Below are positions 7,047 to 64,000 of a DNA stretch of 64,000 bases, piece by piece (positions within the stretch are counted from its first letter, which is position 1; each line of letters starts with the position of its first letter). A program made the position numbers and the translations under genes. The DNA is from Cymodocea nodosa (taxonomy: Eukaryota > Streptophyta > Magnoliopsida > Alismatales > Cymodoceaceae). The stretch spans positions 5,158,501 through 5,222,500 of the forward strand of contig CM072341.1 in NCBI GenBank assembly GCA_036874045.1, read 5' to 3'. The notes below the pieces were generated by a model. The model was given only the letters and a program-made list of their open reading frames with translations. It was not told the DNA's origin and ran no database searches.

Positions 7047-7059
7047 AAGTGCTTAATCT

Positions 7060-10425: not shown

Positions 10426-10429
10426 AGAA

Positions 10430-15069: not shown

Positions 15070-15117
15070 GAAGTAAAAATTGTTATTATAAGTATTTTTA
15101 TTAGATATAACTTTACG

Positions 15118-15290: not shown

Positions 15291-15329
15291 GAATGAGAGA
15301 GTGAGAGTTTTGCATGGGAAATGACCCGA

Positions 15330-17320: not shown

Positions 17321-17389
17321 AAACTTTTTGGGAACAAATTCATAAGAAAACGGTAATAATATAAGCAGAAGAACAGCTGACTTGTTATA

Positions 17390-21090: not shown

Positions 21091-22486
21091 ATTAGTTTAT
21101 ACTATATTTTTCATTAATTAGCACTAACATTTAAATATTTCAAATAATAACCATATTAATCAGGATTTTAGAATTGAATATGAACTAGTTTCAGTAATCT
21201 GTAATACGATTTGTTATTTTCTAGAATGAAATAAATATAAAACATTCAACAATACTAACATTACTAACAATACAAAATAAACGATACAACACAGATTTAA
21301 TAAACATAAAAACAAATAATGAGTTTTTGTTTTATTTTTGTTGATATATGTTCTTGAAGATGAACGAAAGGTGAAAGGTAAAATTCTCTATTGACAGTAA
21401 GAACTCTCGTCACTACATGCAACATAGTTACACCATTGAAAATTTAATCACTTACTGTCACACATTCCTCTCTCTATAGAATCGTGAACCAAGACTTTGG
21501 TAAATTGATCTCCTCTTTAGTATAGTGGTATCAACCCAAAACCAATGCTAGAAGCTTTACTGTATCTTGAGAGATGGTTCGGTGTTTGGTGAAAATGGCT
21601 TCCCTTCTTGTGACATGATCACTCCTCACAATGGTTATTAATCATCGTATTTGGCTCGAAATCGACTCAACATCCGAAAAGTATCCTCATAAACCTCCGA
21701 TGGATGATGGATGGTGGTGTTGGTAAGAGCTCAGGAATGACCAACACTTCTATAGTTAGCGTAGTTCTCCCCCCACACTTTTCTTCATTATTTCTCTTTT
21801 CCTTTCATACTTCTTTCAATAATAACTACTTCCACCTAAATGACTAGTTGGATCTCCTTCCTTCGTATTAATGGTAGTGATTACTTTTTCTGTCCACAAT
21901 TTAAATCATAGCGTGGTTTATGTGACATGATTTCCTTTGAATTTCCTTTTCCTACAACTACTCACAGTTGAATATTAGAAAATAACTAATCTGTGGAATT
22001 AGTGTAACTCAACAAACTTACTTTATTGACTTAATTATAACTCAATGAACTAACCTCGTTGAGTTAACCTTAACTCAACGAACTCGTTTAGCTCTACAGT
22101 TTAATAAAACAAATATTTTTATAACATTTAACATTTAATATGTAAAAAAAATAATTCTTAATCATTCAATAATTGACATGTGAAATAATTCCTAACTTTA
22201 CAAGGTTCCGTAAACTTACCTTAATAACTTTACGAGAATCCGTAAACTTACTTTAGTAACTTTACGATCTTCTATAAACTTCTATAAAACCACATATACT
22301 AAGCTTTCAATCTTTCAAAAATGATATTTAATTAACGCTAATTCCTTAAAATTATGCATATTTTATAATTAAGACATGTAATCGTATATTTATGTTATAA
22401 TGACTTAATTCTTATATGATAAATTAAATATTATACAATTAATCATTCATTAACTACTAATATTATGTATTTTTTTATTCTAAACA
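21091..22486 (-). repeat. Athila LTR on the minus strand, host of the SIRE-like insertion
   Basis: Ends at 22486 with the complement of TGTTTAGAA, the family's LTR start. It begins abruptly at 21091 where the SIRE-like LTR stops, inside text matching the Athila LTR near 9930, so the Copia element inserted into this older LTR. TAACTTTACG-type words lie at 22190-22310 and a TAACTCAACG cluster at 22000-22085. Confidence 0.8.
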
Positions 22487-31820: not shown

Positions 31821-33591
31821 TGTATGAAAGATTTATACTAAAGAGGAAGGGTGAATTAAGTATGCTGCAAATTTTCTAATATTTTTAGTCCCTTTTTAAA
31901 TCTAGTTAATGTGGAAATAAAATAGAGATTAAATCACATAGACAATTTATAGTGGTTCCCCTCAACCAAGGTACATCCACTCCTTAAGTCCCTACTTAAG
32001 AATTTACTATTCTCAAGAGTTTTTAGTTCACTCAAAACTCGATGTACTACAACTTTACTCAAAGCAAAATCAACTTGACAATACATCAATTCTTCGTCAA
32101 GTTCTCCCTCTAACTATACAAATCCTCGTATAGTTTCCATACTAACTATACGAACCCTCATATAGTTATCTACATAACTTTATAGACTCTCATAAAGTTT
32201 ACCTGAAACTCTTTTGAAAAAACACCTTTCAGAGTTTCCCCTACAACACCCATTATGGATAGGTTCTCTTTTTCAATTTACAATGTAATGTAAAGAGGAA
32301 TTAATCATGATAGCATAAACATAATAAAAACTTTCCTCTTGTAGATATGACAATCCTTGAATCTTCAAAAAATGAATTTGTTGTCACTAAGTTCCTTCAG
32401 ATGACTTTTAACTCTCATTCTCCAAGTATCTTTAAGACTTTCTCTCTAGAGTTACTACCTAAAGGGAACTCACTTCTAACTTTGATTTTACTCAATTTAT
32501 ATTACATAAGAAACTCTAACTGATTACACATGATCTTGCATATACGTTCTTTCTCTTTCAAATTTTGTGCAACTACTTACTACGTAAATAGTAGAACAAT
32601 AACTAGCTTGTGAAGTTAGTGTAACTCAATGAACTTACTTCGTTGTCTTAACTGTAACTCAACAAACCTACCTTGTGGACTTAACTGTAATTTAACAAAC
32701 CTACTCCATGGACTTAACTGTAACTCAACGGAGTTACTTCATTAAGTTAAGCTTTACTCAACGAAGTTACTTCATTGAGTTAAGCTTTACTCAACGAATT
32801 CATTCAGTTTTAGACCTTTTCAAACTACGATCTTTAATCTTGACTTTATCAAATTTATCTTTGATTGCCATTTGTAAATATTTGACTGAGTCTTTAGAAA
32901 TATGGTAGAACATGTGTGAGTACATGTGTGCCACATGTCATCTACAAAATAAATAATCATACAACAAACTTTGATTAAATATAACAATTACATAAACTCA
33001 TCAAAGTGATAACATTACAATCCTTTGTAAAGTTATGGGCATAACTTTACGAGCTTATGCATAGTAGAACATTACGAACATTCATAAACTTATCCCTATA
33101 ACTTTACAGACTCTTACATGTTAATATGTGTAAAGCACAATTGTTTATCTTTGACAAATTATGTGTACTAGACTTCTTTATGAACCCTTTAATAGATAAC
33201 CTTATGGAGGTCTGTCAAGTTATCCTTATAACTTTACGGATTCTATATATCATAAGTTTATGAAGATTCATAACGTTAAAGTCATAACTTATATATATAT
33301 GTATATATACAGTTTCATAAATTTACAAATATCCGTAAAGTTATAAGGATAACTTTACGAGTCTCTGTAAATTTATATACTTAGATAAATTTTAGAGTTT
33401 TAAACTAGTATTATGAATTAGATAAATTTACGATTGTATGTAAAGTTAACTATATAACTTTTATGACAGTCTATAAACTTATAAACTTGATATTATTTTA
33501 AAGTTTATTATTTTACATAATTAAAATATAAATTATTTTGTCAATCATCAAAATATAAACATATTAATAGATAAGAATATTATCCCTAACA
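31821..33591 (-). repeat. 5' LTR of the minus-strand Copia relic
   Basis: On the minus strand it runs TGTTAGGGATAATATT to CTTTCATACA, 1771 bp, with TG/CA ends. It carries two word clusters: TAACTCAACG-type at 32600-32810 and TAACTTTACG-type (for example ccgtaaagttataaggataa) at 33030-33480. Confidence 0.75.
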
Positions 33592-34976: not shown

Positions 34977-35842
34977 AAACGGTTGAACCGTAAATATATT
35001 GGTTCAACCGATAGATTATAAACTATTAATATTTATTAATATTGAAAACGGTTGAATCGATGATCTTTCGGTTCAACCGATAATTTATGTTATATATATA
35101 TATATATATTAATCGGTTGAGTAGAGGGCTTTGCATATTTGTAATTTTTTATGATATTTTTGAATTGGTTGAACCGAACATGTTCGGTTCAACCGATACT
35201 TTTTATATATATAAAGATATATATATATGTATAACATAAATTAGTATCGGTTGAACCGAACATGTTCGGTTCAACCGATACTTTTTATATATATAAATAT
35301 ATATATATACATATATAAGCATCGGTTGAACCGATAATGTTCGGTTCAACCGATACTTCTTATATATATAAATATATATATTTGTATCGGTTGAACCGAA
35401 CATGTTCGGTTCAACCGATACTTTTTATATATATAAAGATATATATATACATATATATATTTGTATCGGTTGAACCGAACATGTTCGGTTCAACCGATAC
35501 TTTTTATATATATAAAGATATATATATACATATATATAAGCATCGGTTGAACCGATAATGTTCGGTTCAACCGATACTTCTTATATATATAAATATATAT
35601 ATTTGTATCGGTTGAACCGAACATGTTCGGTTCAACCGATACTTCTTATATATATAAATATATATATTTGTATCGGTTGAACCGAACATGTTCGGTTCAA
35701 CCGATACTTCTTATATATATAAATATTAATATTTGTATCGGTTGAACCGAACATGTTCGGTTCAATCGATACTTTTTATATATATAAATATATATATATG
35801 TATATATATTTTTTCAATTGGTTGTTCGGGAAAACCGATACT
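34977..35842. repeat. Array of 36-bp palindromes in A/T spacers
   Basis: Nine near-identical units start at 35164, 35245, 35321, 35385, 35464, 35542, 35606, 35671 and 35736. Each is TATCGGTTGAACCGAACA followed by its own complement. Diverged units lie at 34977, 35045, 35110 and 35817. Spacers are (TA)n-rich and bring the period to about 64-65 or 76-81 bases. The units at 35321 and 35542 share the same variant, so a block of about 221 bases was duplicated. Each unit can form a cruciform, or a hairpin in RNA. The array lies in the 3' noncoding part of the Harbinger. Confidence 0.95.
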
Positions 35843-36262
35843 TTATATATATATAAATAAATATATATATATGTATATGTATTTTAAACTAAATTGTATT
35901 TAAAGATTAAAATAATAAGAATAATTTATAATCTATGGTTTGAACTAATAGATTTAAGATTTCAACCAAAATATATTATAAAACACTACCTAAAATTATG
36001 TAATTAATACATCAATCTGTAATTTTTTGAATTGAAAATGAAAATAATATTAATGACTTGAAAAAGTATACATGCTCTAATTATTACAACATAAATTTAA
36101 AAAGTAGTCTAAAAGTACAAAGCATCCAAAGTTTTACGACATCAATCTACACAATAGTCCAAAGATACAAAGCATTCTACTTATTACTTAAATAGTCCTT
36201 CCATCCCACATTGCCATCATCATATCCTCACGCATCTTATCAACTAATTCTTTTCGTTGTTC

Positions 36263-37594
36263 TTAACTCCTTTCAACCTGTGAATGACCATCCATATGCA
36301 CTTCTCCTGTTGGTTGTATATCATCAGTAATATTTAATTCTTCTAACTCATCTTGCAAATCTTCAAGTAAATCTTCTTTATCAGCCAATCGAATGAAATT
36401 GTGAAGTAAAAAACATGCGATCACAATCTTCACTTGTGTTTCATATGGATATGGCATCTGACCTCGTAAGATTGAAAAACGATGTTTCACAACTCCAAAT
36501 GTACGCTCAATGACTGTTCTTAGTTGTGAATGCCTGTAGTTAAAGTTTTCTACAGCATTACTAGGAAGTCTATCATTAACATAATCAGATAAATGATAGC
36601 GTACACCTCGAAATGGGCAAATATACTCTGGTCGATTGGGATATCCAGCATCTACCAAGTAAAACTTACCTATAGAAGAATAGAAATTAGTATTATAATG
36701 TGCATATTACTTGAAAATATACTAATTGCATTTACCTGGAGGAACTTTGAAACCATTAGGTCTACTAATTGCATCTTGAAGGATACGAGCATCAGCTGCT
36801 GATCCTTCCCAACCAGCTAAAATATATGTAAATCTCATATCAAAATTACATGCTGCCATCACATTTTGAGACAATTCACCTTTCCTATTTCTAAATCTAG
36901 CTGTTTCTTGTCCAAAAATAGTTGCTTTGATATGAGTACCATCAATAGTTCCAATGCAATCCTATACACATTAAACATCATTTAATTCCTTAAATAAGAT
37001 AAAAACTGCAATATATATACAAAAGTGAATACATACCTTAAAATATGGATAAACATTTACATCATCTATAATTCGACTTGGTGTTGAAGATAAAGGTCTT
37101 GCTATAAGCACATGATGTAGACGTATTATAGCATTTAATACTTCATTAAAGTATTTGCTAACACTCTAACTTGAACGACTAAATCGCTCAACTGTTACTC
37201 CATACCTTTGATTTTGCCCTACTGTGACAAGGAACATGGCAAATTTCTCTTCTACACTAATGTTGGCGGTATCAGCAATAACTCCTTCATTTCTCATTAA
37301 AGAACAAAAACTTTTAAACACACTTTGACTCATTCTGTAAATCTTTCGACAATTGTAAGCTTGATGAGGTTGACAAGGATCTAGTAATCTCTTAATGTAA
37401 TCTGCACCTTCTTTACTATATATACGACTTGTGTTATTGTATAGTAATAGTGACGTACTTGACATTTTCGCTAAAATTGTCCATGACATTAATAGACGTA
37501 GTCGCCTTCTTCTAGCCACTTCTTCTTCATCCAGTATGAATGAAATTGCATTATCAACTGTAGTAGTAAACATGTCACTGGGATTCATCCTCAC
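36263..37594 (-). pseudogene. Harbinger DDE transposase gene, one in-frame stop
   Basis: Three exons on the minus strand: 37594-37037, 36961-36736, 36669-36263, joined by GT-AG introns in matching phase. The catalytic residues of the DDE_4 family are visible: first Asp in CIGTIDGTHIKA, second Asp in LVDAGYPNRPEY after FYLVDAGY, Glu in QLRTVIERTFGVVKHRF. The N-terminal part (YRMSQSVFKSFCSLMRNEGV, FLVTVGQNQRYGVTVERFSR) is the usual helix-rich lead-in. A TAG at 37168-37166 interrupts it in RFSRSS-stop-SVSKYF, where relatives have a Glu or Gly-Glu. The rest is open to the acidic C-terminus. The first exon has an AG acceptor-like site at its start (TTTTGTAG|GTGAGG), so an upstream exon is possible; otherwise the ATG at 37588 would begin it. 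Confidence 0.85.
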
Positions 37595-37942
37595 CTACAA
37601 AATAACAAGAATATTACGAATTTACCATTTCACATTTCAATATATAAAAGACATTTCACATTTTTAAGAAAATAAAAGACATTTCACATTTTTAAGCAAA
37701 AAAAAAAAACATTCGATGTTTCAACTAATAAAAAGCATTTTACATTTCATAATGATAAGTCATTTCACATTTCAATATATAATATCCATTTTACATTTCA
37801 TCCATATATGACCTTCCACAAAAAGATTTCATCCATAAAAGATTACATTCACAAAAACACTTCATAAACACAAGAAGTTCAAGATTGGAAAGAAAGTGAA
37901 TTCATGCACAAAACAAACATTCCATCCATTGTAACCATATGC

Positions 37943-38980
37943 TCACTTCCTAAACCTCAACCATCCATAACGCATTTCTGCTGGTAAACTTAAGAACATT
38001 TTACAAAATTCTGGCTTTTGGAATAACTCCATAGCTTCATATTGTTCTTCTGTAGAAAGACCTTCAATCTGAAGTAACGCTGCAACAGCATGATCTAAAT
38101 AGTTTTTAGTCTTTTCTTTAATATCAACCAACCTTTCCTGTACTTCAACTAATTTTTTTTGTGTATCAACCAACTCTTTAAATTGCTCGTTCCGTGTAGT
38201 TTGATTTTGTTGATCTATTTCACACATATGCATAATGGCTTTTGATGCATCTTTAAATGAATCTGATATGATTTGATGGGACACTGCATGAGGTCTTGCT
38301 CGTCTCTTCTTCTTCTCAATTGCCACCCTTGAACTTCCTCCTGATGAAGGAGGTAAATCAGAATCCATGTCCATTGTTTCCTGAGTGGTATTGAAAGTGT
38401 TCATTTCCACATCATCCTGCGTGTTTGGTACAAACTCTACCTCATCACCTTGTTTAGCCATATTCCCAGTGGCCATACTACCTTCAAATATTTGTTGCAA
38501 TTGCTCAAATATCAAGCATGGTTTGCCTTTGTAGCTTTCACACTCTAGATGTGCCTATAAAAAGAAAATTGTAGTCAAATGGAAAAAGATAAAGATTACA
38601 ATATTTTATAAGTCATAAGTGATTAAAAAATTAACCTTAACGAACTCTTTCCAAATCTCATCATTAATGTCAGTGTAACCTTGGATGAAATTCCAACCCC
38701 ATCCACTCTGGTTGGCAATTTTGGAGTAATTTCGATACATTAGTCGCCAAGTTTTTAAGCGACTTTCTACATTCTTCCTTGTGATACCTGTGTTTCTTCT
38801 AGTATTGTATTTTTCAATTACTTCATCCCAAGTGCTACCTTTGATTTTTCCATCATGAGTTTTCTTATTTCCTTCATTCAATACTTCTGCTAAAATATCT
38901 AAGAAATACGCATCTGCTTCAGCATTCCAACTAATGTAACTTCTACCTCCACCTGTCCTTCCCTTATCAGGAGTACTCAT
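37943..38980 (-). CDS. Harbinger Myb/SANT-like DNA-binding protein (ORF1)
   Basis: Two exons on the minus strand, 38980-38636 and 38554-37943, with an 81-base GT-AG intron. Together they give 318 residues without a break. Residues about 15-110 form a Myb/SANT-like domain (SYISWNAEADAYFLDILAEV, GSTWDEVIEKYN, VESRLKTWRLMYRNYSK, GWGWN), the DNA-binding partner that Harbinger transposases need for nuclear import and end recognition. Downstream lie a basic patch (EKKKRRARPH) that could be a nuclear signal, and a coiled coil (FKELVDTQKKLVEVQERLVD). The start is the ATG of MSTPDKGRTGGG. It precedes the transposase on the same strand by about 350 bases. It looks intact. Confidence 0.85.
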
Positions 38981-39659
38981 TTTCTACACAAGCACAGTTT
39001 CAACAACTACAATAAAACATATGGAATAACAACAATAATAAAAATATTCGATGGAGTTAAAAGGTCGACTTCATGCTACGGTAATTAGTGAAGATGCACT
39101 GTGATATGAGAAAAACAAAAAAAGTCTTCATGGATGTATGATTGACTTTCAAGGAATCAAGAACTATGTCAAATTTCAAATCGAAGAATTGCATAATGAG
39201 AGAAAGGCATGAAGTTTTTATATATCCTCTAAATAATAATCCTTGGTTCATTATTTGACATCTACTGACATTCTTTAACAAATATAAGCACGAATAAGCA
39301 CCGTAAACTGGAACGATGACATTAGAATTTCCATCTGGCATGATTGTCATAAATCAGTAGATCAGCAACCACTTTATGGCATAAGCCCTAAGAGCTTCCC
39401 CCATCACATTAGTTGGTATCCTTCCTTTGGCTTAACTTCTAAAATTGGAAGGTTGCATTTATCTTGAAGGATCAACATTGCAACAACAGAAAATAGAAAG
39501 AGAATAATCACAATGGCTCTGCTTTTTGAATAATGGGAGTTATTGAACAAGAGCTCTCTGTTAAGCTTGCTTTATGAGTTGATCATCTTTTATTATAATA
39601 AATATGTTTGATTAGTGCAAGATTTGTATCTTTAGGCCAAACCTATTGGGTGGGCAATG

Positions 39660-47863: not shown

Positions 47864-50033
47864 TGTTTAGAATGAAAAAGTGCATAATATTAATGGTTAA
47901 ATAATGATTAATTGCATAATATTTAGCTTATCATATGAGAATTAATTCATTATGTTATAATTACATGATTATATGCCTTAATCACAAAATGTGCATAAAT
48001 TTAAGGAATTAACATTAATTAAATATCATTTCTGAAAAATTGAAAACTTGATTTAAGTGTGGTTTTATAGTATTAAGCATGATATTTTTTATTTATATAT
48101 ATATATTATGTACAGGTGTACGGTAACAACTCATTGAGTTAGTATTCTTTTTGTAAAAAAAGATCACGTGTAAACTCATTGAGTTATAGGTTTAAAGGTG
48201 TAAAAAGATCACATGAGAACTTGTTGAGTTTGCGAGTAAAACTGTAAGTTGTATACCTAAACTCATTAAGTTAAGAGTATGCACATGTCGAATTTAAATA
48301 TTTTATTATATCACGTGAATTGCATATGTTTAACTCATAAGTTAGCATAATTATATGCGTTGAGTTACTTGATTATATACTAAGGTAATACGTTGTGTTA
48401 ATGTTACAAGCTTATAAGTTATTTTTTTATTACATGTGATATTTGTTTCTAGTAGGACACATGTTGTGACCTTAAAACATGATTTAAGTTATCATTCAGA
48501 AGGTTAGATGCTAACTATCCAAAATGCATATAAGTTTTGGATACTTATAGTTGTAAGTATCTGAAAAATCCTTTTACCATCAAAAAGTTGTTTTAAATTA
48601 TAAGTTATTTCTTTATTGCATATGTTTTATATTATTGTTTTATATTAAGTCCATTGTGTTAAGCTTTACTCAACAAGGGAAGTCCGTTGAGTTAATAGTT
48701 AAGTCAACGGAGTAAGTCCATTAAGTTACACTAACTCTTCTAATATTTAAATATGAAGTAGTTGCAGGAACAAGAAATTCAAAGGAAAACCATGATTGCA
48801 CGTATCACGTAGGATTTAACTCGTGGAATGAAGAAGGAATCACCATCATTGACACGATTGAAGGAGATCCAACCAATCATTACGTCAGAGGTAGTTATTA
48901 TTGAAAGAAATATAAAAAGAAGAGAAGAAGAACGAAGAAAAGGTGTGGAGAACCACGCTAACTGCAGGAAGCATCGGAAGTTCCCTGAAGCTCCACAACA
49001 CCACCACAATCACCAACCATTGGAGGTTTGTGAGGATACTTTTTGGATGTCGGGTCAATTCTGAGCCAAACACGATGATTGCAACTATTATGAGGAGTGA
49101 TCACGTCATAGGAAGGGAAGCCATTTCCACCCAGCATTGAATCATATCTCAAGAGATCATAAAACTTCTAGCCTTGGTTTTAGGTTGATGTCAATATATT
49201 GAAGAGGAGATCAACTTACAAGTCTCGATTTGCAATTCTATAGGAAGAGGAGGTGTGACTATAAGTGATTAAGTTTTTAATGGTGTAATCGCGCTGTATG
49301 TAGTGACACAAGTTTTTGGTGTCAAAAGAGAATTTCTACATTTCATCTTTTGTTCATCTTCAGGAACATATCAAAACAAAAACAAAACTAGTTATCTATT
49401 TTTATAGTTAGAATTTATATATTGTATTGTGATTAATGTCATTATTGTTAGTATTGTGAATGTTTCGTGTTTATTTGATTCAAAAAAGAGAAAATAGTTT
49501 TTTATTGATTACTAAAAGTGATTCATATAAATTACCCAAAATCTTAATGGTTAATGTTTGAAATATTTGAATGTTAGTGTTGATTAATGATGAATACCAG
49601 ATAAACTAACATTAAAAAGTTTAATTGATGTTATTTACATTCTATGAAACTACCTAATGGATGGCTGAATTCCTTTGTGAATAGCAAAATCCAATTGGAA
49701 GTTACTAGTGAGGCTCGTGGAGTTAACTTAAGTCTACGAGGATGATCCATTGAGTTAACTATAACTCCACAAACTAAGTTCGTTGAGTTAGCAGTAAATC
49801 AATGGAGTTCTTCATTTAATACATATAAAACTCTAGTTGTAAAAATTAAAATAGTATGTAATTCTTACTTAGTCTCTGTGGGATCAACTTGTACTTGCAC
49901 ATAAATACAATAGACACTATGCACTTATAGTTAAAAATAAATTAGATTTAATATCTAATTTGTGAAAATTATTTTTTTACTCTAAAAAGAATACTATAGA
50001 CATACATATAAGTAAATGAAATTCACCCAAACA
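47864..50033 (+). repeat. Athila-type LTR, copy 2
   Basis: 2170 bp, TGTTTAGAATGAAAAAGTGC to CACCCAAACA. It carries the G-box/GTTAAGTTA module at 48115-48425 and the inverted word cluster at 49715-49810. Confidence 0.88.
48115..48425 (+). promoter_or_regulatory. G-box/GTTAAGTTA module in the Athila LTR (representative)
   Basis: Repeated order: cacgtg with GAGTTA word, aactc(g/a)ttaagtta, gcac(a/g)tg, tatcacgtga, ttgcatatgtttaactc, cactaaggtaa. Further copies lie at 8700-8960, 53100-53425 and 55395-55700, and, in the Copia LTRs, at about 470-700 and 19795-20100. CACGTG is the plant bZIP/bHLH G-box; TAACT-type cores are MYB-like. Regulatory action is inferred. Confidence 0.5.
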
Positions 50034-50129
50034 AGTTTTCTAGCACCATTGTTGAGGACTGAAAAGCTAAGCAACTATAGTGTTGTTTTGTTTTCATAGC
50101 ATAAGGAGTGTTGTGTGTTTTTATCATTG

Positions 50130-51190
50130 AGAATATGGCATATGCTTATGCTCAAAGATTTCTAAAACTTGTAGTTAGTATATGTGAATTTTGCAATTTG
50201 GAAGGTCATGACATTACTGATTGTTTGAAACTAAGATGACTGCAGATGTTTAGATCGAATGAATAACAAATGATTTATATCTAATGCAATAGAATTGAGT
50301 ATGAGAATCCTATAGTTTACTCAACCAATAGTTAGTTTAGAACAACTAATATGTCGAGAAACAAGAAAGTTTGGGATAAGTATGATAGACTTGAGCGTAG
50401 CTTAGAACAAAACCTAGATAAACTAGAACAATACATGTATTATTAACAAGAAGTCAACCAAATAAACTATAAGGAAAATTATTCAAAACCTAAAATCGAT
50501 ATCATCTATGAAACTGAGAAAACAATAATGAAAATTGATCAAAAATTGAATGCAATGAGATTAGATAATTGGAAAGAAAGCTAAAGGCACTAGATGAATT
50601 TACAATGAAAATACAACTTAGGAAACTTGAGAACACAAATGAAAATTTCAAAGTTGAAAATTTGCATAATTTACAAAACACAAAGATAAAAGAAAGTACC
50701 AATGAAATAGGAATTGACAAATGTAAATTAATGAAAGAAAAATTGGAGACAATTGAAAATCAAAATCATAAAAATGAAATGGTAATACAAGAACATCTTG
50801 AAAGTAATGAAAATCTAGAAGATGTGTGTATAACATTAAGATCTAGAACTTATGTGCCATTAAGAATTTAAAAAGAAAATAAAGTGGAGCTAAGTAAGAA
50901 AGAAATTCAAAATGAAAATGAACATGTAATACTTAAAAACTTAGAAATTAATGAAGAAAAATCTAAATCTGAAAATGAAACTAAAAATAATCAAAAGAAT
51001 GAAACAAAAGAAAAAGAATCTTTTAAATCACAATCATTAACGTCCTATCCTGAAAGATTAAAACAAACATTTCTTGAAAAATAAGAAATAATTAAAGAAA
51101 TTTTTGAAAAAGTATAAGTTAACATTCCTTTGTTAGATTTATTGTAGAAAATGCCACCTTGTGCTAAATTTCTTAAGGATTGGTATACTA
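50130..51190 (+). pseudogene. Athila gag relic, second copy
   Basis: Contains SICEFCNLEGHDITDCLKLR, a zinc-knuckle-like CxxC...H...C peptide, at about 50187-50247. A long Lys/Glu/Asn-rich coiled-coil-like part follows (50569-50871) and then SLTSYPERLKQTFLEK. It serves as the reference for the rearranged gag at 10430-11130. Broken; fossil. Confidence 0.65.
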
Positions 51191-51229
51191 AGAAAAGGGA
51201 GCAAAAAGTGTTAAGAAAAGTCTTTTTAG

Positions 51230-52598
51230 CTTAACATAGTAATTCTCTATTTCTATCACAAATTCCTAAAAAGTTATCTAATCTAGGAATCCCTATTATA
51301 TCATGCACTATAGGAAAGACCATGCTGGAAAAACTTTAATAGACCTATGTGCAAGTATAAATGTTATACCTAGTGATATATTTGCATCATTAGGATTAGA
51401 AGGCTTAATCCCTACTAAGACTGTCATTCAATTAGTAGATAGAAGTATAAGATACCTTAGAGGAAAAGTAGAAGATGTCCTAATTAAAATAAAGAATTTC
51501 ATCTATCCTATTGATATTGTTGTTTTAGATTCTCAACAAATTAAGCATTAGAAATATGATACATCTTTAATTTTGGGAAGACCATTTCTAACAACATCAA
51601 GGGCTATTATAGACTGTAAAAATGGAATGATGAAATTAGCATATAGTAACGAGGATACTCAATTGAATATTTTCAAACCAAAAGGGGATGAGGAGTTAGA
51701 AATGTCCTTATATACTGTAGACTTTCTAGAGAATGAAGGAGATATGCTAGAAGATGTGATTCAAGAAGAATTAAATAGGCAAATAGAAACTAAAAATTTA
51801 GAAGTAAGTGAAAATATAGATGGAGACTTAAACATAGACATAAAAGGAGACCAAGAAGAGTTTAATATCGAAGACGAAAATGTTAATTAGAAGCTCTAGC
51901 TTTTGATAGTCAACACTTAGATTTAAAACTTTTACCTCCTGAATTAACCTATATATTTCTAGAAGAAGAATAGACTTGTTCAATCATTATTGCATCAGAT
52001 TTAAAGGAAGATCACATATCTAAATTAAAAGATATAGTAAAGACATATAAAGAAGTAATAGGATAGACTATGGCTGACATAAAAGGGTTAAATTCTACTT
52101 TATGTTGTCATCATATATATTTGGAAGAGAATGCTAAACTAGTTAGAATTCTTAAATGAAGATTAAATCCAAACCTTAAAGAAGTAGTTAGGAAAGAAAT
52201 TGTGAAATGGTTAGATAATGACATAATATTTCTGATTTCTAACAACTCCTAGGTTAGTCCAATCCATGTAGTTCCTAAGAAATCAGGATTAACTATTATT
52301 AGGAATGAAAGTCAAGACTTGATATCTACTAGAATTCAATCAGGCTGGAGAGTGTGTATAGATTATAGAAAGTTGAATGCTGTGACTAGGAAAGATCATT
52401 TTCCCTTACCTTTTATAGATCAAATGTTAGAGAAACTAGTAGGGCAAGAATATTTTTGTTTCCTAGATGGATATTTAGGATATAACCAAGTTCTAATAGC
52501 ATTAGAGGATCAAGAAAAAACAACGTTCACATGTCCTAATGGAACTTATGCTTTTAAAAAGATGTCATTTGGATTATGCATCTATCTTTCAAAGGTGT
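51230..52598 (+). pseudogene. Athila PR and partial RT relic, second copy
   Basis: Protease region at 51300-51680 (LIDLCASINVIPSDIFASLG, with the D-L-C/G active-site type text; GRPFLTTSRAIIDC), an acidic spacer to 51890, then RT at 52300-52598 (GWRVCIDYRKLNAVTRKDHF, FPLPFIDQMLEKL). RT ends where the LTR at 52599 is inserted. Confidence 0.8.
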
Positions 52599-54830
52599 TG
52601 TTTAGAATGAAAAAGTGCATAATATTAATGGTTAATTACATTATATTTAACTTATCATGTGAGACTTAATCTATTATATTATAATTGCACGATTATATGC
52701 CTTAATTAAAGAATATGCATAATTCTAGTAAATTAATGTTAATGAAATATATTTTTGAACTGTTGGTGAGTTATCGGCTTTTTAATTCCATAATATCCAA
52801 AATGTATGTTATTTTAGAGAGTTACATTTTATGTACTAGACAGTTATGTTTTGAATGCTTAAAGAGTATTTTATTATTTCAAGGACACATGTTATAACAT
52901 GAATACGACTTAAGTTATTTTTTGGTAAGTTAGATGCTAACTATCCGAAATGCGTTTGAGCATCAGATAGTTAGGTTTGAAAGTATCTGAAATACCTTTT
53001 TATCATAAAAATTACTAAGGACATGTTTCGTGATCTGAAAACCTAATTTAAGTGTGGTTTTATAGTATTAAGCATGATCTATTTTATTTGCAAATATTTA
53101 TATCATATATAGGTGCATAGTAAGAACTCATTGAGTTAGTTTTCTTTTTGTTAAAAGATCACGTGCCAACTCGTTGAGTTACAGGTTTAAAGGTGTAAAA
53201 AGATCACGTGAGAATTCGTTGAGTTAGCGAGTAAAACTGTAAGTTGTATATCTGAACTCATTAAGTTAGAATTATGCACATGTTGAATTTAATAAATGTT
53301 TTATTATATCATGTGAGTTGCACATGTTTAAGTTGTTAAGTTAGCATAACTATACGTGTTGAGTTACTTGAATATACACTAAGGTAACGTGTTATGTTAG
53401 TATTATAAGCTTATAAGTTATTTCTTTATTTCACGTGATATATTATTTTATGTTAAATCCGTTGAGTTACACTAACTCCACAGACCAATTATTTTCGAAC
53501 ATGCCACTGTTAGCAATTGCAGAAATAGGAAATTTGAAGGAAACCACGATTGCATGTATCATGTAGGAATTAACTTGAGGAATGAAGAAGAAATCACCAT
53601 TGTTGATACGAATGAATGAAATCCAACTGATCATTAGGTAGAAGCAGTTACTACTAAAAGAAATATAAAAAGAAGAGAAAGATGAAGAAAGGTGTGTGAA
53701 GGTGGAGAATCGTGCTAACTGCAAGAAGCGTCAAAAGTTCCCTGAAGTTCCACAACACCACCACAATCACCAACCATTGGAGGTCTATGAGGATACTTTC
53801 TGGATGTCGAGTCGATTCCGAGCCAAACACGGTAATTGACAACCATTGTGAGAAGTGATCGCATCATAGGAAGGAAAACCATTTTCACCAAGCACTAACT
53901 CATATCTTAGGAGATTGTAAAGCTTTTAACTTTGATTTCAGGTTGATGCTAATATACTGAAGAGGAGATCAACTTACAAGTCTTGGTTCATGATTCTATA
54001 GGGAGAGGAGGCGTGATTGTAAGTACTTAAGTTTTCAATGGTGTAATTGCATCACATGTAATGACGAAAGTTTTTACTGTTGATAGAAAATTTTTGCATT
54101 TCACATTTTGTTCATCTTCAAGAACATATCAAAACAAAAATACCAAAAAATTAATTATCTGTGTTTATAATTAGTAGTATTTATGTGTTGTATTGTTTAT
54201 TTTGTATCATGATTAATGTTATTATTATTAGTATTGTGAATGTTTTATATTTATTTGATTCAAAAAATAGAAAATAGTTTTATTGATTACTGAAATTGAT
54301 TTATACAGAATACTTAAAAGTTACTGTTCAAAATATTTGAATGTTAGTGTTGATTAACAATAAATTTCAAATTAACTAATATTAAAAAGCTTAATTGATG
54401 TTATTTACATTTTGTGGAATTGCCTAATGAATGGCCAAATTCCTCTATGAATAGCAACATTTAATTGAAAGTTACAAGTTAGACTTGTGGAGTTAACTTA
54501 AGTCTAAGAGGATAGTCCTTTGAGTTAATTGTAACTCCACGAACTAAGTTCATTGAGTTAATTGTAAATCAACGGAGAGCTTAATTGAACACATATAAAC
54601 TCTAATTATAAAAATAAAAATAGTACATAATTCTTACTCAATTCTTGTGGTATCGACCTATACTTGCACACAAATATAATAGACATTGTGTACTTGCAGT
54701 TAAAAATACAAATTAGACTTAATAGCTAATTTGTGTGAAAAGTTGTTTGTTTACTCAAAAAGAATTTATTAATATAAGCATAAAAACAAATCAAACAAGT
54801 TTTCTGATTTGACTTTTCAAAATCAAGACA
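52599..54830 (+). repeat. Athila-type LTR, copy 3, inserted in RT
   Basis: 2232 bp, TGTTTAGAATG to AATCAAGACA, directly inside the RT text of the second Athila copy. It is followed by 39 bases of primer-binding-site sequence (aattttctagcatcgttact...) and then at once by another LTR. Confidence 0.85.
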
Positions 54831-54869
54831 AATTTTCTAGCATCGTTACTAGGGAATTGAGAAGCTAAG

Positions 54870-56244
54870 TGTTTAGAATGAAAAAGTGCATAATATTAAC
54901 GGTCAAATGATGGTTAATTGCATAATATTTAGCTTATCATATGAGAATTAAGTCATTATGTTATAATTGCACTATTATATGCCTTAATGAAAGAATCTGC
55001 ATAATTTTAGGAAATTAATGTTAATTAAGTACATTTCTGAACTATCGGTGAGTTACAGGCTTTGAAATTCTTAAGTATCCGAACTTTCTGTTATTTCAAA
55101 GAGTTACATTTCATGTACTGGACAGTTATGTTTTAAACGCTTAAAGAATATTTTATTATTTCCTAGAGTACACATGTTGTAACCTTAATACAAGACTTAA
55201 GTAGATTTTCAGTAAGTTATCTACTAACTATTTGAAATGTATCTGAACATCAGATAGTTAAGTTTGCAAGTATCCGAAATATCTTTTTATCATAAAACTT
55301 ATTGAGGACATGTGTCATGATCTGAAAACCTGATTTAAGTGTGATTTTATAGTATTAAGCATGATCTATTTTATTTGCTCATATTTATATCATGTATAGG
55401 TGCACAGTAACAACTCGTTGAGTTAGTGTTCTTTTTGTGGAAAGATCACATGCCAACTCGTTAAGTTACAAGTTTAAAGGAGTAAAAAGATCATGTGAGA
55501 ACACATTGAGTTAGCGAGTAAAAATTGTAAGTATTATATTTGAACTCATTAAGTTAGAATTATGCACGTGTTGAATTTAAATATTTTATTATGTCACATT
55601 AGTTGCACATGTATAACTCGTTAAGTTAATATAACTATATGCATTGAGTTGAATATACACTAAGGTAACACGTTGTGTTAGTATTATAAGCTTATAAGTT
55701 ATTTCTTTATTGCACATGTTTTATAGTTAAATCAATGAAGTAAGTCTGTTTGAGTTACACTAACTCCACAGACCATTTGTTTTCTAACATGCCACTATAG
55801 CAATTACAGAAATAGGAAATTCGAAGGAAAACCATGATTGCACGTATCACGCAGGAATTCACTCATGGAATGAAAAAGAAATCACCATCGTTGATATGAA
55901 TGAAGGAAATCCAACTAATCATTTAAGTAGAAATAGTTACTACTAAAAGAAATATAAAAGAAGAGGAGAAAAAACTGTGAGAGTAGGTGGAGAACCACGC
56001 TAACTACAAGAAGCATCGGAAGTTCTCTAAAACTCCACACCACCACCAAAATCACCAACCATCGGAGGTCTATGAGGATACTTTCCGGATGTCGGGTTGA
56101 TTCTGAGCCAAACACGGTGATTGACAACCACTATGAGGAGTGATCGCGTTGCAGGAAGGGAAGCTATTTTCACCAAGCACCGACTCACATCTTAGGAGAT
56201 CGTAAAGCTTCTAGCCTTAGTTTCAAGTTGATGCTAGTATGTTG
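54870..56244 (+). repeat. Athila-type LTR, copy 4, partial
   Basis: Starts TGTTTAGAATG right after the primer-binding-site fragment of copy 3 and stops at about 56244 in the family's gttgatgctagtatgttg text, where inverted LTR sequence begins. Module at 55395-55700. Confidence 0.8.
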
Positions 56245-56999
56245 TTTGGATTTTCCCAGCACGACACCAGAATATCTGATTAGATCTCCAACAACGTACT
56301 AGAAAAACTTGGATTTGTTACTTCTATTTTTACTTAATTAATTTATCTTTATGCCTATTCTTTTTCTTTTAGAAGTAAACAAACAACCTTTAATACAATT
56401 TAGATATTAATTCCAATTTGTACTTTAACTGCAAGTGCACAGTGTCTATTGTATCAGTGTGCAAGTACAGGTCGATCCCATAGGGAATTGCTTAAGAACT
56501 GAGAACTGTCCGTTTGTTAACAATCAAATTTATATATTCAATAAGCTCTCCGTTGAGTTATAGTTAACTCAATGGACAAAGTTCGTTGAGTTATGGCTAA
56601 CTCAATAGACTAACCTCGTGGACTTAAGTTAACTCCATGAGCCTGTCTTTTCTTTTTAATACTACTATTTACAGAGGAATTCGGCCAACTATTAGGTGAT
56701 TCCACAGACTGTAAATAACATCAATTAAGCTCGTTAATGTTAGTAGACATTGGATTTATCATTAAGCATACTAACATTTAGATAATTCACATAGTAACCA
56801 TTAAAATCTTTTAGTCTTTTGAACGAACCAATTTCAGTAAACTGTAATACTAAAACTAACATAAATCAATCACAACACTAACAAAGATAACATTAATCAC
56901 GATACAACACAAACAATACAACACTCAAATACAAAATACAAACAAAGTTAATTTTTTTTTGGTATTTTTGTTTTAATATGAACATGGAAATGGGCGAAA
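56245..56999 (-). repeat. Athila leader and LTR 3' part, inverted
   Basis: On the minus strand: the last part of the LTR (word cluster at 56550-56650, gggatcgacctgtacttgca), then primer-binding-site text (tctggtgtcgtgctgggaaa) at the left end. Confidence 0.75.
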
Positions 57000-57004
57000 A
57001 GTGA

Positions 57005-59187
57005 TGTTTAGAATGAAAAAATGCATATTATTAATGGTTAAATGATGGTTAATTGCATAATATTTAGCTTATCATATGAGAATTAAGTCATTATGTTATA
57101 ATTGCACTGTTATATGCTTTAATTGAAGAATCTGCTTAATTTTGGGGAATTAATGTTAATTTAGTACATTTCTGAACTGTCGGTAAGTTGTAGGCTATGA
57201 AATTCTTAAGTATCCGAATTTTCTGACATTTTGGACAATAATGTTTAACAGACCGAACATGTATCAGATAGTTATGTTTAAATTGCCGAATAGTTATGCT
57301 TTGAAAGAATAGTTTATTATTTCCTGAAGTACACATGTCGAAACCATAATGCATGACTTAAGTGAACTTTCGGTGAGTTATCTATAACTATCCGAAATTG
57401 CAGTTGGGCATCGAACAGTTATATGTGTAACTCTCCGAAATCTCTTTTTATTTATAAAATAGCTGAGGACACGTGTCATGTTCTAGGAAAGTAACTTAAG
57501 TGGATTTTTGGTGAGTTATCTCTAACTATCCGAAAGTGCAGTTGAGCATCGGATAGTTAGACCTGTAACTCTCCAAAATGTTTCTTTTATTATTAAACTG
57601 CTGCTGACACGTGTCAAGATCTGGTAGATTTACTTAAGTTATATATCAGTGAGTTATCTGTAACTATCTGAAATGCATCTGAGCATCGGATAGTTAAGTT
57701 TGTAACTATCCGAAATACATCTGAGCATCGGATAGTTAAGTTTATAAGTATCTGAAATGCACCTAAGCATCGGATAGTTAAATTTATGCACGTGTTTTAT
57801 AGTTAAATCAATGAAGAAAGTCCATTGAGCTATCTGTAACTCCACAGACTATTTATTTTCTAATATGCTACTGTAGCAATTGCAGGAACAAATAGTTGGA
57901 AGAGAAAAAACCACATTTGCATGTAGCGCGTAGGGAGAAGAAATCATCGCCGTTGATACGAATGAAGGAAATACAACCGACCATTCAAGTAGAAGCAGTT
58001 ACTACTGAAGAAATATAAAAGAAAAGAAGAAAAAAAGAAGAGGGTGTGATCGATGGACGACCAGTGTGTACAGAGGAGGAGCACCGAGCTTTCTGTAGGC
58101 AGTATCGACAATTCTCCAAAGTACCACACCAACTATCGTTACCACCACCACAATCACCAACCATTAGAGGTTTGTGAGAATACTTTCTTGATGTTGGGTC
58201 AATTCCGAGCCAAACACAGTGTCTGAAAACCACTGTGAGGAGTGATCGCGTCGCGGGAAGGGAAACCATTTTCACCAAGCGTCGACTCATATTTTAGGAG
58301 ATCGTAAAGCTTTTAGCCTTGGCTTCGGGTTGATGCCTGTATGTTGAAGAGGAGGTCATCTTGCAATTTTGGACTCGCGATTCTATAGGGAGAGGAGACA
58401 AAATTGTAAGTGGTTTAATTTTCAATGGTGTAATCGTGTTGCAAGTAGTGTCGGAAGTATTTACTGTCAAGTGAGATTACTTTACATTTCACCTTTCGCC
58501 CATTTCCATGTTCATATTAAAACAAAAATACCAAAAACAATTTATCTATGTTTGTATGTTGTATTTGAGTGTTGTATTGTTTGTGTTGTATCGTGATTAA
58601 TGTTATCTTTATTAGTGTTGTGATTGTTTTATGTTTGTTTTAGTTTTATAGTTTACTGAAATTGGTTCGTTCAAAAGACTTAAAGATTTTAATGGTTACT
58701 GTTTGAATTATCTAAATGTTAGTATTTCTTAATGATAAATCCAATGTTAACTAACATTAAAGAGTTTAATTGATGTTATTTACAATTTGTGGAATCGCCC
58801 AATGGTTGGCCAAATTCCTCTGTAAATAGTAGTATTAAAAAGAACAGACAGGCTCGTGGAGTTAACTTAAGTCCACGAGGTTAGTTCGTTGAGTTAGCCA
58901 TAACTCAACGAACTTTGTCCGTTGAGTTAACTGTAATTCAATGGAGAGCTTATTGAATATGTAAATTTGATTGTTAACAAACGAATAGTTCTCAAGTTCT
59001 TCAGCAATTTCCTATGGGATCGACCTATACTTGCACACTGATACAATAGACACTATGCACTTGCAGTTAAGTACAAATTGGAATTAATATCTAAATTGTA
59101 TTAAAGGTTGTTTGTTTACTTCTAAAAGAAAAGAATGGGCATAAAGATAAATTAACTAAGTAAAAAAAAATAGAAGTAACAAATCCA
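57005..59187 (+). repeat. Athila-type LTR, copy 5, complete
   Basis: 2183 bp, TGTTTAGAATGAAAAAATGC to AACAAATCCA, followed by primer-binding-site-like agtttttctagtgtagtgtt. It differs from the other copies in its 5' third. There TAACTATCCGA/TCGGATAGTTA pairs are repeated at 57360-57790, in place of the G-box/GTTAAGTTA module. Three hairpins of GTTGAGTTA words lie at 58853-58946. Confidence 0.85.
58853..58946. repeat. Three tandem hairpins near the end of the Athila LTR
   Basis: 58853-58879 pairs CTCGTGGAGTTAA with TTAAGTCCACGAG. 58884-58913 is a perfect stem GTTCGTTGAGTTA / TAACTCAACGAAC around GCCA. 58917-58946 is an imperfect pair. The set recurs in every Athila LTR end of this family (10050-10150, 49715-49810, 54480-54580; inverted at 16850-16950 and 56550-56650). 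Confidence 0.85.
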
Positions 59188-59215
59188 AGTTTTTCTAGTG
59201 TAGTGTTGGGAAAAC

Positions 59216-60385
59216 ATAGTGGTTAAAAGCTTTATGATCTCCTGAAATATGAGTCGGTGCTTGGTGAAAATGACTTCCCTTCCCGTGACGCAATCACTCC
59301 TCACAGTGGTTCTCAGGCACTGTGTTTGGCTCGAAATCGACCTGACATCAAGAAAGTATTCTCATAGACCTCCGATGGTTGGTGATTGTGGTGGTGGTAA
59401 CGATAGTTGGTGTGCTACTTTGGAGAATTGCCGATACTGCCTGTAGAAAGTTCGGTGCTCCTCCTCTGTACACACTAGCCGTCCATCGATCACACACCGT
59501 CTTCTTTTTTTCTTCTTTTCTTTTATATTTCTTCATTAGTAACTACTTCTGCTTGAATGGTCGGTTGTATTTCCTTCATTCTTATCAACGGCGATGATTT
59601 CTTCTCCCTGCGTGCTACGTGCAAACATGGTTTTTTTCTTCCAATTGTCTATTCCTGCAACCGCTATAGTAGCATATTAGAAAATTCATAGTCCGTGGAG
59701 TTACAGATAACTCGACGGACTTTCTTCATTGATTTAACTATAAAACACGTGCATAAATTTAACTATTTGATGCTCAGGTGTATTTCGGATACTTATAAAC
59801 TTAGCTATCCGATGCTTAGATGCATTTCGGATAGTTACAGATAACTCACCGATATATAACTTAAGTAAATCTACCAGATCTCGACACGTGTCAATAGTAG
59901 TTTAATCATAAAATAACATTTCGGAGAGTTATAGAGCTAACTATCCGATGCTTAGATGCAATTTCGGATAGTTATAGATAACTCACTGAAAGTTCACTTA
60001 AGTCATGCATTATGGTTTCGACATGTGTACTTCAGGAAATAATAAACTATTCTCTCATAAAATAACTGTTCGGCATTTTAAACATAATTATCAGACATGT
60101 TTGGTCTGTTAAACATAACTATCCGAAATATGTCTGGTATGTTAAACGTAACTGTCTGAAATATCAAAAAATTCGGAAACTTAAGAATTTCACCGCCTGC
60201 AACTTATCGATAGTTTAGAAATGTACTAAATTAACATTAAATCCCCAAAATTAAGCAAATTCTTCAATTAAAGCATATAATAGTGCAATTATAACATAAT
60301 AGCTTAATTCTCATATGATAAGCTAAATATTATGCAATTAACCATCATTTAACCGTTAATAATATGCACTTTTTCATTCTAAACA
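59216..60385 (-). repeat. Athila LTR 5' part, inverted (3' LTR of the F-box-bearing element)
   Basis: On the minus strand it starts TGTTTAGAATGAAAAAGTGC at 60385 and runs 1170 bp, with the same TAACTATCCGA pairs as copy 5 (59750-60130). A purine tract (GGTATGGGGGAAG) lies just before it at 60398-60386, as expected of a 3' LTR. Confidence 0.8.
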
Positions 60386-60398
60386 CTTCCCCCATACC

Positions 60399-62276
60399 TA
60401 AATTTTGCTAGTCCCTTAGCAAACTAAGATCTAATTAATTGGTCTTTCAAAAAGTGCTAGAATTAATTCTTCCCCTTTGTTTTTCTTCTGTTTAGCATAA
60501 AAATATATTCTGTATGTTTCAGTAATCAACCTGCAAATATACTTAGAATATATGTAAATTACATACAAAGTATATCATTATCACATAGGTGTTAATTATA
60601 TTATCGTTTGTTCTTCTTTTCATCATCTGTTATCCTGAATTTTCCAATAAGATTTCTAGAAGAAATTTCAACAACATACGAATCAAAGTACAATCCAATT
60701 CAATATGATTAAGACAAGTTGAATAAAGAATTGTATCTCCCTTAAACAACTTCAAAAGTCAATTCTAGATTCATATTACAACAATTCTAGATAACAGAAA
60801 ATATACTCGATTCATAAGATATCTGTATTTCACAAAACACTTGTATTTTTTTAGAACAGTATATGTTTTTTTTTTCTTTTCTTTTCTTTAAAAGCTAATT
60901 TGACAAGCTTGAATCATACAAGAGCTTTCTAATGTACCCATGTAACGAGCTTTCAGTCAACAATCCTTACATACCTATCTGCTTAAGTACAAAAGGCTCG
61001 TGATCAAATAAGTCAATAAACTCTCAAATTTTTCCCTTTTTTTTTTTTCAATCAAACTACAAACACAAAACAAAACATTAATCACATACTGTATATGTAT
61101 GTATTTCATTAATACAGATGCAGTAATCACCAATCTCATATAGTCCTGCTTCTATCATTTACTGAAAATATGAATCCATAACAATAAGCTCATACTTTTT
61201 CTGTAATTTAATTAGATCTACACATAAATCATTCTACAAGTTCAATCAGTGAAATTAAATGTATCTTTCATCATATGTTTCATTTAATCTAAAATTCACA
61301 TCTCAGCATTTTTAGGACTTCAGATAATTTATTGATTTTTCATTAAGCATTCTGATTTCATTTTAAAATCGTGAAACTATTAAACTCATGAAATTCAAAA
61401 AAAAACATAAGATACTATATTTAGATTTGCATAAATAGTAAATTCTATAGCATCTTATATAACCTTCTAAATATAACATTCAAGCAGTTACAGTTTATAT
61501 AAATTTTACAATCTCAATTATTGGATAATTACAGCAAGTTCATAAAAATTTTCAATTTCCACAAAACTTTGCTATACCATTTTAATTCCTTTAATTAACA
61601 AACTTACATGGCTGTTACTTTAATTACCTCCCCTCCATACCTACATTTTGCATTGTTCTCAATGTAAAAGATTTGACAATAAGTACAGTAATTGTAGCAG
61701 GCATGAATACAGTTTTGTTGATTTAAAATTCAGGATAAGTAATTGGTTACATACCTTGTTTCGTTTATATCTCCTTCTGTATATTCTGACTTTTGATTCT
61801 GAAAAACTTTTCATTCATAGATAAAAGAAAAATATAAAATAAAATAACACTTAACAGATATTAATAAATCAGTGTCTTGTATGGAACCCAGGCTCCTATG
61901 CCTCTGGTGGCTCACAAGCAAGTCAGTTGGTTTCCCAAAACAAATACCAACAAACTGGATTGATATTTTGTTTTTATAAAATAAACATAAAAAATTCAAA
62001 AAAAAGAAAAAAAAAAATTCTAAACATAAACGTAGAATACACATAACATTAAACACATAAAATTACAGCTTAAGAACATGATTGAAAAGTAGGAACAAAT
62101 GGAATAAATGTATTAGTCCAAGCAAACTTTTTAGGCATAGTTCTTCTTGCTATTAATTCTATTTTAATGCAGTTATTGCTCCTTGTTAATTTGTAAACCT
62201 ATACTATATTATAAATTCCAAATACAAGTGTATTACCATTAATGATATGAAATGCAGAAAGGGATGCTTTTTGATT
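60399..62276 (-). other. 3' noncoding region of the F-box-bearing element
   Basis: A/T-rich, without frames of note; homologous to 7060-8416. Coding-like text related to the F-box frame appears to continue a short way into its right end (62276-62070). At 61810-62060 there is a different-looking stretch beside an A-rich run, possibly a small insertion. Confidence 0.55.
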
Positions 62277-63200
62277 CTAGGGTAATGTAGCAGTTTCTAT
62301 TTCTACATCTATTTCAATATATTCCTCTTCCCACTTCCATTCATTAATGTCTTTTATAATCCATATTTGAAATTTCATCAATTCATCCCAACATCTTATT
62401 AGACATAAAGTAGGATCATCTTCGTCATTATACCACATTCCTATTTGAATTTTATTAGATTCTTCAGATGGTGGTTTAGCTATTTCTCTCGGTATAGGTA
62501 AAATTTCTATATATTCATCGTAACTGTCTATGCTCACTATGTATAAATCAGATCCAAATGCTATTGATATATCTGTGACTAGATATATATATCCATCAAG
62601 TATGACATGTGTTTGGTTAATTAATGATTTCCGTCCCAGATATATCATAATATTTTCATTCCAAGATTTATTCAGAAAGTTATACACACTTAAGTGTAAA
62701 TCTTCACCCGAATTTCCTATAGGTCTCCAATAATATAATTTTTCAGGAATTGCAGAATTTTTATTAGAAAAAATCAAAGCCGATCCACAATTTACAGTTG
62801 GTACTTCAAATCTATTAGGTCTTCCTATATTCCATTCTTCTCCTATTATAGGATTTCTTATCAAAATATCAGGTAATAATAAACTTGCATACCTTGGTCT
62901 CCTCGTGTATATGATTAATCCTTCATCTATCCCCATAATATGATCTATTCCTTCTAATGTATTAGGTGGAATTCCAGTAGTTTCTTCCATAGCTAGATAT
63001 TCATGGGTATTTGAACTACGATTAAATGACCTCCATATAAATCCAACTCTAATCTTAGTCATTTTTGCAGCTTGTAGTCCTTGAAAATATTTTTCTTCAA
63101 TATAGTCTTTAATTTCCTTTAATACACAATACAGCTTGCACAGATCTTTAGCTGATAAATTACTCAGTACTTCCTTTAGTGCATCCAACGATAATTGCAT
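62277..63200 (-). CDS. F-box-like protein frame inside an Athila derivative
   Basis: 307 codons open from the ATG at 63200. Residues 1-45 fit an F-box: MQLSLDALKEVLSNLSAKDL, then CKLYCVLKEIKDYIEEKYFQ, with the Leu/Val and late aromatic positions in place. F-box motifs bind Skp1 and place substrates on SCF ubiquitin ligases. The remainder resembles F-box-associated beta-propeller text (GIDEGLIIY, then ILIRNPIIGEEWNI, then EKLYYWRPIG and CLIRCWDELMKFQIWIIKD). It lacks any Gag or Pol feature, yet lies 220 bases after gag, on the same strand, ahead of the element's purine tract and LTR. It is probably a host gene captured as a processed copy, as no introns are seen. Family-like text seems to continue past its end, so it may be shorter than its source. 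An ordinary F-box gene caught between unrelated Athila fragments is the alternative. Confidence 0.65.
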   Translation of the reverse strand: MQLSLDALKEVLSNLSAKDLCKLYCVLKEIKDYIEEKYFQGLQAAKMTKIRVGFIWRSFNRSSNTHEYLAMEETTGIPPNTLEGIDHIMGIDEGLIIYTRRPRYASLLLPDILIRNPIIGEEWNIGRPNRFEVPTVNCGSALIFSNKNSAIPEKLYYWRPIGNSGEDLHLSVYNFLNKSWNENIMIYLGRKSLINQTHVILDGYIYLVTDISIAFGSDLYIVSIDSYDEYIEILPIPREIAKPPSEESNKIQIGMWYNDEDDPTLCLIRCWDELMKFQIWIIKDINEWKWEEEYIEIDVEIETATLP

Positions 63201-63264
63201 CAATTCTATTTGTCGATTCTATATGACACAAACAAAAATTTAGCAGAGACAAAAATTAACATAA

Positions 63265-63345
63265 CTACTGCACACCCTCGTAGAGTTAAGGCATAACTCA
63301 ATAGACTAAGTTCGTTGAGTTAAGGACTAACTCTACGATACTATT
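63265..63345. repeat. Inverted TAACTC/GAGTTA word pairs between gag and the F-box frame
   Basis: ctcgtagagttaaggcataa, then gttcgttgagttaaggacta and actctacga: the outer words pair with each other and the inner GTTGAGTTA pairs with ATAACTCAAT. These are the same words as in the LTRs, here placed just before a coding frame. Confidence 0.75.
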
Positions 63346-63419
63346 AACTAAAAATAAAAACATATATACATACAGATAGTTGCTTTAGTTATACTACTTC
63401 ATTCGGCTACCCTCCTAGA

Positions 63420-64000
63420 AGAGGTATCAATTTCATTAACAGATCTATTGACAGGCTTAGGTATTGCTTGTATTGGCAATCCTTTAGTAGGTCTACCATC
63501 CATTGGTTCCTTCTATCTAAGTGGTATATTTCTATTCTGATTTTGAATTGCAGCATTTCCAAATACAAAATCTAGACGATTGTTTAATTGTTGGATTATC
63601 TTTTCTAATTTCTCTATTCTAGATCCTTGTTCAATTAATGCTTCATAACTTATGTTCTTCTCATTTATATTTTCTCCTCCTTGGAAATTGTTGTTTCTCC
63701 AAGATAAATTCGGGTGATTTCTCCAATTGGGATGATAAGAATTTCCCAAGTTATCTCTCTGGTTTCTAGCATAAATAATATCTAAGTCATTTATGTTTGC
63801 ATTCTTTTCTGCTAGCTTTTAATTTAATGATAACTCTTCTATTTTCTTTGTTAATTCATTTAATTTCACTTCAAGCATAGTACTTGAATCTATTTCATGC
63901 ATTCCTCTTGGCAATATTTTTTTATCTACAATAGCTTCAGTCGAATTTTCCCATTGTGCAGTTCTTTTTGCAAAGTTTTCTAAATATGCCCATGCTTCTT
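63420..64000 (-). pseudogene. Athila gag end, minus strand
   Basis: Minus-strand text EAWAYLENFAKRTAQWENST, then a coiled-coil part (LEVKLNELTKKIEELS), NSYHPNWRNHPNLSWRNNNF (the hallmark YxPxWRNHPNxSW of Athila Gag), and a second coiled coil (SRIEKLEKIIQQLNNRLDFV). It continues beyond the window. Fossil, but comparatively well kept. Confidence 0.8.

Follow-up and report, generated by a model that had tools for sequence, protein, structure and literature searches.

A proposed pol-less Athila-type LTR retrotransposon derivative in Cymodocea nodosa that may carry a captured F-box/FBA-like gene

Arrangement of the locus

We studied 64,000 nt of the Cymodocea nodosa genome (assembly GCA_036874045.1, contig CM072341.1, positions 5,158,501-5,222,500, forward strand), called here the window, to which all coordinates refer. 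Read on the minus strand, the end of a gag gene is followed by a joint, a long open frame, approximately 1.9 kb of noncoding DNA, a purine tract and the start of an LTR at 60385. An initial annotation of this DNA had placed gag, a frame of 307 codons, noncoding region, purine tract and LTR in this order on one strand, and our analysis agrees. The annotation also regarded these features as a single element. Their order and common strand fit this view, but only one end of the F-box-bearing element lies inside the window; the 5′ end, with any 5′ LTR, is outside, beyond 64000, and the single element is a tentative reading.

The absence of pol from 60386-64000 was likewise confirmed. We ran tblastx of this stretch against six further parts of the window, including two with gypsy pol. 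Among the matches listed, none was to pol: the best E-values against the two gypsy-pol stretches were 0.16 (10380-16700) and 0.019 (49900-52700). The sole convincing match listed for the six stretches was to a copy of the noncoding region within 5900-8420. An Rfam scan of 57000-64000 at gathering thresholds gave no match.

The gag piece (63411-63998, minus strand) is the C-terminal part of the gene and comprises 196 codon positions, with premature in-frame stops at 63821-63819 and 63515-63513. It carries a motif that we take to be typical of Athila gag, and it ends near what is presumably the gag/protease border. Pfam and NCBIfam searches named no family for it, although it shares 81 of 91 positions with P0001, an unnamed 91-residue protein from a 511-nt contig. 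No relatives were found in IMG/VR, a collection that holds little plant DNA. The pol-bearing copies in the window also gave no match to this gag, either among the tblastx matches listed or in the comparison within the window, so that gag and LTR are not tied to one family.

In LTR alignments, the 3′ LTR (59221-60385, minus strand) is truncated after about 1090 of its family's some 1990 positions. It abuts an inverted LTR of the same family (57005-59195, plus strand). Thus, 57005-60385 holds an inverted pair in which the minus-strand LTR, cut at its own position ~1090, meets the end of the plus-strand LTR. Plus-strand LTRs of this family start at 8417, 47864, 52599, 54870 and 57005, and the LTR of the F-box copy starts with TGTTTAG at 60385, as these sister LTRs do. 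At 52599-54895, an LTR is followed by ~30 nt with a primer-site-like stretch, after which another LTR of this family starts at 54870.

Aligned to the LTR at 8417, the LTR of the F-box copy shows 86% identity in a stretch of 255 nt and 77% in one of 563 columns. Behind the LTR at 8417 lie a primer-site-like stretch, a frame that we take to encode a protease (weak Pfam match, E 0.056), RNase H and integrase. By this similarity, the F-box copy shares its LTR with a pol-bearing Athila-type element. The assignment to the Athila lineage within gypsy is our assumption from characteristic features, including a presumed tRNA-Asp primer site. This site agrees at 12, 12, 12 and 8 of 18 positions at four sister LTR ends, the 5′ LTR of the F-box copy being outside the window; among 300 random 60-mers, 95% reached 9 or less, with a maximum of 12. 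The initial annotation had assigned the copy to Athila, and the kinship of its LTR to an element with RNase H and integrase speaks for this. By contrast, the copy itself has no pol, and a kinship of its gag to match that of its LTR is not seen in the window. Given that no pol match was found in 60386-64000, the copy is an Athila-type derivative at most.

The 3′ noncoding region (60386-61517, minus strand, 1132 nt) is 66% identical to 7079-8098 over 1055 columns, and the likeness is carried by the alignment as far as a degenerate purine tract near 8232. Its end, GGTATGGGGGAAG, stands immediately ahead of the TGTTTAG at 60385 and includes the purine tract GGGGGAAG (60386-60393, minus strand) that adjoins the LTR. 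The only other copy in the window, from 7079 to ~8232, begins ~35 nt downstream of a copia-type pol frame, counted from its stop; this frame has a reverse transcriptase match, and its last piece, which had no match, is presumably RNase H. Because that copy follows a copia-type frame, the noncoding region is not tied to the Athila family alone, and its description in the initial annotation as the family's own 3′ noncoding region is not confirmed. A further 759 nt (61518-62276, minus strand) separate it from the open frame; they have only AT-rich matches in the window, and we assign them no origin.

The joint between the gag end and the open frame (63219-63404, minus strand) ends directly ahead of the frame with CATATAG, a possible splice acceptor site. 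It contains a palindromic unit (63278-63338) that matches its own reverse complement at 75% across 61 nt and the stretch 58882-58968 at 72.5% across 91 nt. Similar units lie in the LTRs and, in the sister element, in a block downstream of pol at ~15076-15293, which is followed by a different, broken frame. The resemblance weakly suggests that the F-box frame perhaps sits in an extra-ORF position in a copy that has lost pol, rather than having replaced pol; the placement is weak because palindromic blocks also occur in the LTRs. The initial annotation had placed the F-box where pol should be. The frame does lie downstream of gag and upstream of a 3′ end of Athila type, but judged by the palindromic block it may occupy the extra-ORF position instead.

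Short palindromic units with GTTGAGTTA / TAACTCAAC recur at 740-850, 15076-15293, 20152-20278, 22005-22084, 32620-32798, 56551-56639, 58850-58951 and 63278-63338, and occupy internal regions as well as the LTRs of several families. Three exact palindromes with a gap of 4-14 nt are present, compared with none in 100 shuffles. Also behind pol of an Athila-type element, 14750-15023 aligns across 291 columns, at 62.5% identity, with a portion of a tandem array of ~65-nt units at 35154-35866.

Identity and composition of the open frame

The open frame (62277-63200, minus strand) runs for 307 codons from an ATG at 63200 to a stop at 62279-62277. The stop-free run that contains it (63218-62280) has 313 codons and is the longest in 60386-64000; when 1000 sequences of the same length were simulated with a first-order Markov model, their longest runs had a median of 85 and a maximum of 177 codons. 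GC occurs at 124, 101 and 61 of 313 first, second and third codon positions (P 2e-7). No such signal is present in the 759-nt flank (P 0.13) or in the noncoding region (P 0.69).

Profile searches support the initial annotation's description of the frame as F-box-like, up to a point. The Pfam F-box family PF00646 matches residues 3-24 (E 0.0056, 17.0 bits), and the NCBIfam model TIGR01640 (F_box_assoc_1) matches residues 168-302 in the C-terminal half (E 1.1e-5, 24.9 bits). Both domains are thus matched, but both scores are below the curated cut-offs (20.5 and 37.9, respectively), and no Pfam FBA family was listed up to E 10. The two matches are independent and are arranged in the expected order. 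As a control, seven other proteins from the window gave nothing below E 1e-3 in NCBIfam. Taken from these profile matches, it is likely, though not proven, that the frame encodes an F-box/FBA-like protein.

A single-sequence AlphaFold2 model of the frame has a mean pLDDT of 36.3 and exceeds 50 only in an N-terminal helical part; given the low values elsewhere, it adds little to the identity. The best hit in a search of solved structures was unrelated (E 0.68). No relatives were found at E 10 or less in a protein collection (491 candidates), nor in IMG/VR or GTDB genomes, which says little because these collections hold little plant DNA.

That the frame stays open while surrounding copies decay had been read as a sign of recent capture or of selection. 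Scaled by single changes to stop from one or two gag stops, 1.8 or 3.6 stops would be expected in the F-box frame, and the chance of zero is 0.17 or 0.03, respectively. With these probabilities, openness is a weak argument for either reading.

Composition does not support a recent capture either. The frame has a GC3 of 19% and a C/(C+T) of 0.13 at two-fold sites. In tests on counts that were reconstructed from rounded fractions, this third-position composition is statistically indistinguishable from that of gag (P 0.21) and lower than that of a Myb/SANT-like DNA-transposon gene (P 0.015). Another DNA-transposon gene, with a GC3 of 23% and a C/(C+T) of 0.18, is near the retroelement genes, and composition therefore does not single the latter out. 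The GC3 of the frame is like that of retroelement genes in this comparison, which covered genes of retroelements and DNA transposons; a newly captured host gene might well differ from them. A DNA transposon at 36266-38983 (minus strand), presumably of the PIF/Harbinger type, has matches to DDE_Tnp_4 (E 5e-15, 36266-36706) and to a Myb/SANT-like domain (E 2.5e-13, 38609-38983).

Seventeen codons of the frame (7 CAA, 1 CGA and 9 TGG) are a single C-to-T or G-to-A change away from a stop, and none has become one. This suggests that the AT-rich third positions arose under selection in either the host or the element.

Origin of the frame

We propose, with a probability of about 0.5, that a pol-less, non-autonomous Athila-type LTR retrotransposon derivative carries a captured plant F-box/FBA gene. 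In favor of this reading are the order and strand of the features, the two domain matches, a coding signal that is absent from the flanks, the lack of a pol match and the sister LTR at 8417. Against it count the 5′ LTR outside the window, the single copy of the frame in the window, the noncoding copy adjoining a copia-type frame, the unmatched gag and the domain scores below cut-off.

Under this proposal, a host F-box mRNA would have been taken up through template switching during reverse transcription, as would fit a frame that has no intron, although many FBA genes lack introns in any case. The captured gene might then have settled in a sense extra-ORF position ahead of the 3′ noncoding region, as the palindromic block faintly hints, and pol, which is absent from this copy, would have been lost at the place where the gag end now meets the joint. 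Transcripts from the 5′ LTR could have been packaged using the enzymes of a full relative, and the frame could have been expressed by splicing or reinitiation. If translated, the protein may work as other F-box proteins do, by serving as the adaptor of an SCF ubiquitin ligase, to go by the names of its domains. A capture bounded by direct repeats was considered and rejected; we found only 9-nt AT-rich matches.

The copy is not otherwise sound. It has two stops in gag and a cut 3′ LTR, and is therefore probably no longer mobile.

A different origin, which we regard as unlikely but more probable than the other alternatives, is that the frame belongs to a host F-box gene or a retrocopy that never moved with an element, pieces of one or several retroelements having inserted or been rearranged around it. 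The surroundings are indeed nested and rearranged, with an inverted LTR pair and LTR beside LTR, and no origin could be assigned to the 759 nt downstream of the frame or to the greater part of the joint. Such a mosaic would also accommodate the noncoding region behind a copia-type frame and the 5′ end outside the window. However, gag reaches near its presumed end, the noncoding region continues unbroken into the purine tract and LTR, and the features are ordered and oriented as in an element. Moreover, LTR and repeat alignments revealed no foreign LTR in the interval from gag to the noncoding region.

The openness and composition of the frame bear on a further explanation, in which it would be a long-resident, selected extra ORF that is common to many Athila-type copies and helps the element, for example against silencing factors. 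The element would then encode a ubiquitin-ligase adaptor of its own. We consider this improbable. An open frame in a copy whose gag has two stops would be expected of such an ORF, and the chance of finding no stop is as low as 0.03, yet it rises to 0.17 if one gag stop is counted. Similarly, a GC3 that cannot be told from that of gag (P 0.21 from the rebuilt counts) would suit a long residence, as would the 17 stop-prone codons left unconverted, although a DNA-transposon gene has a similar GC3 (23%). A second copy of the F-box-like frame was not found within the 64-kb window, and the pol-bearing sister element has a different frame at the corresponding place.

Finally, it is very improbable that the frame encodes an element-specific protein whose F-box likeness is due to chance: this would agree with the sub-cut-off scores and with the failure to find a sequence relative in collections with little plant sequence, but not with two independent matches in the expected order, nor with the seven other window proteins that had no match below E 1e-3 in the same library.

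Related systems and significance

Among non-autonomous elements, TR-GAG elements keep gag and have no pol. The F-box copy is like them in having gag without pol, and differs from them in its extra frame and broken gag, and in that only one of its ends is in view.

The captured gene that we favor looks like the product of a known kind of event, as far as excerpts of the literature indicate. LTR retrotransposons with captured host genes are described in a survey of rice and sorghum (PMC3726574), and another is maize Bs1 (cited in PMC7264820). A flax copia element has an F-box gene between its LTRs (PMC5142383), and an LTR-gene of the F-box family is reported in Thlaspi arvense (PMC8764390). These gene-capturing elements, like the present copy, carry a host-like gene in sense orientation with retroelement sequence on either side, and in flax it is also an F-box gene. 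The flax element is copia, whereas the Cymodocea nodosa copy is of the gypsy/Athila type, has kept gag, has no pol and has one end in view.

Athila, other OTA and SIRE elements have heterogeneous extra ORFs (eORF/aORF) that are thought to have been acquired independently (PMC6317226, PMC7264820). These resemble the F-box frame in being sense frames of more than 250 codons ahead of a long 3′ noncoding region. Unlike the elements described there, the F-box copy has no pol, and the excerpts of these two papers name no F-box domain for an eORF or aORF. Also in the window, at 17320-18696 (plus strand), there is a frame with several stops before 18118, of which the open piece 18118-18696 has a weak Transposase_32 match (E 0.006); in sunflower, an extra ORF of Athila is reported to have this domain (PMC11728184).

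Orchid Ty3/gypsy elements carry an AlkB m6A demethylase, with many copies and tested activity (PMC9289625). They too are gypsy elements in which an added frame encodes an enzyme or adaptor domain of host type; the F-box case is one copy, known from its sequence alone. The same paper's screen of 121 angiosperm genomes names the plant mobile domain, G-patch, AIR1, AlkB-like and other domains, with no F-box in the portion of its text that we consulted. An F-box frame in an Athila element was not found in the excerpts searched, which does not prove its absence from the literature.

Only 21.4% of extra ORFs in plant LTR elements matched a known domain, most matching none (PMC6317226). An F-box/FBA extra frame would therefore offer a testable biochemical handle. 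If the frame is a single passive capture, it is one more case of a known process. If copies share it, the existence of an element with its own ubiquitin-ligase adaptor would be relevant to how elements of this kind cope with host control.
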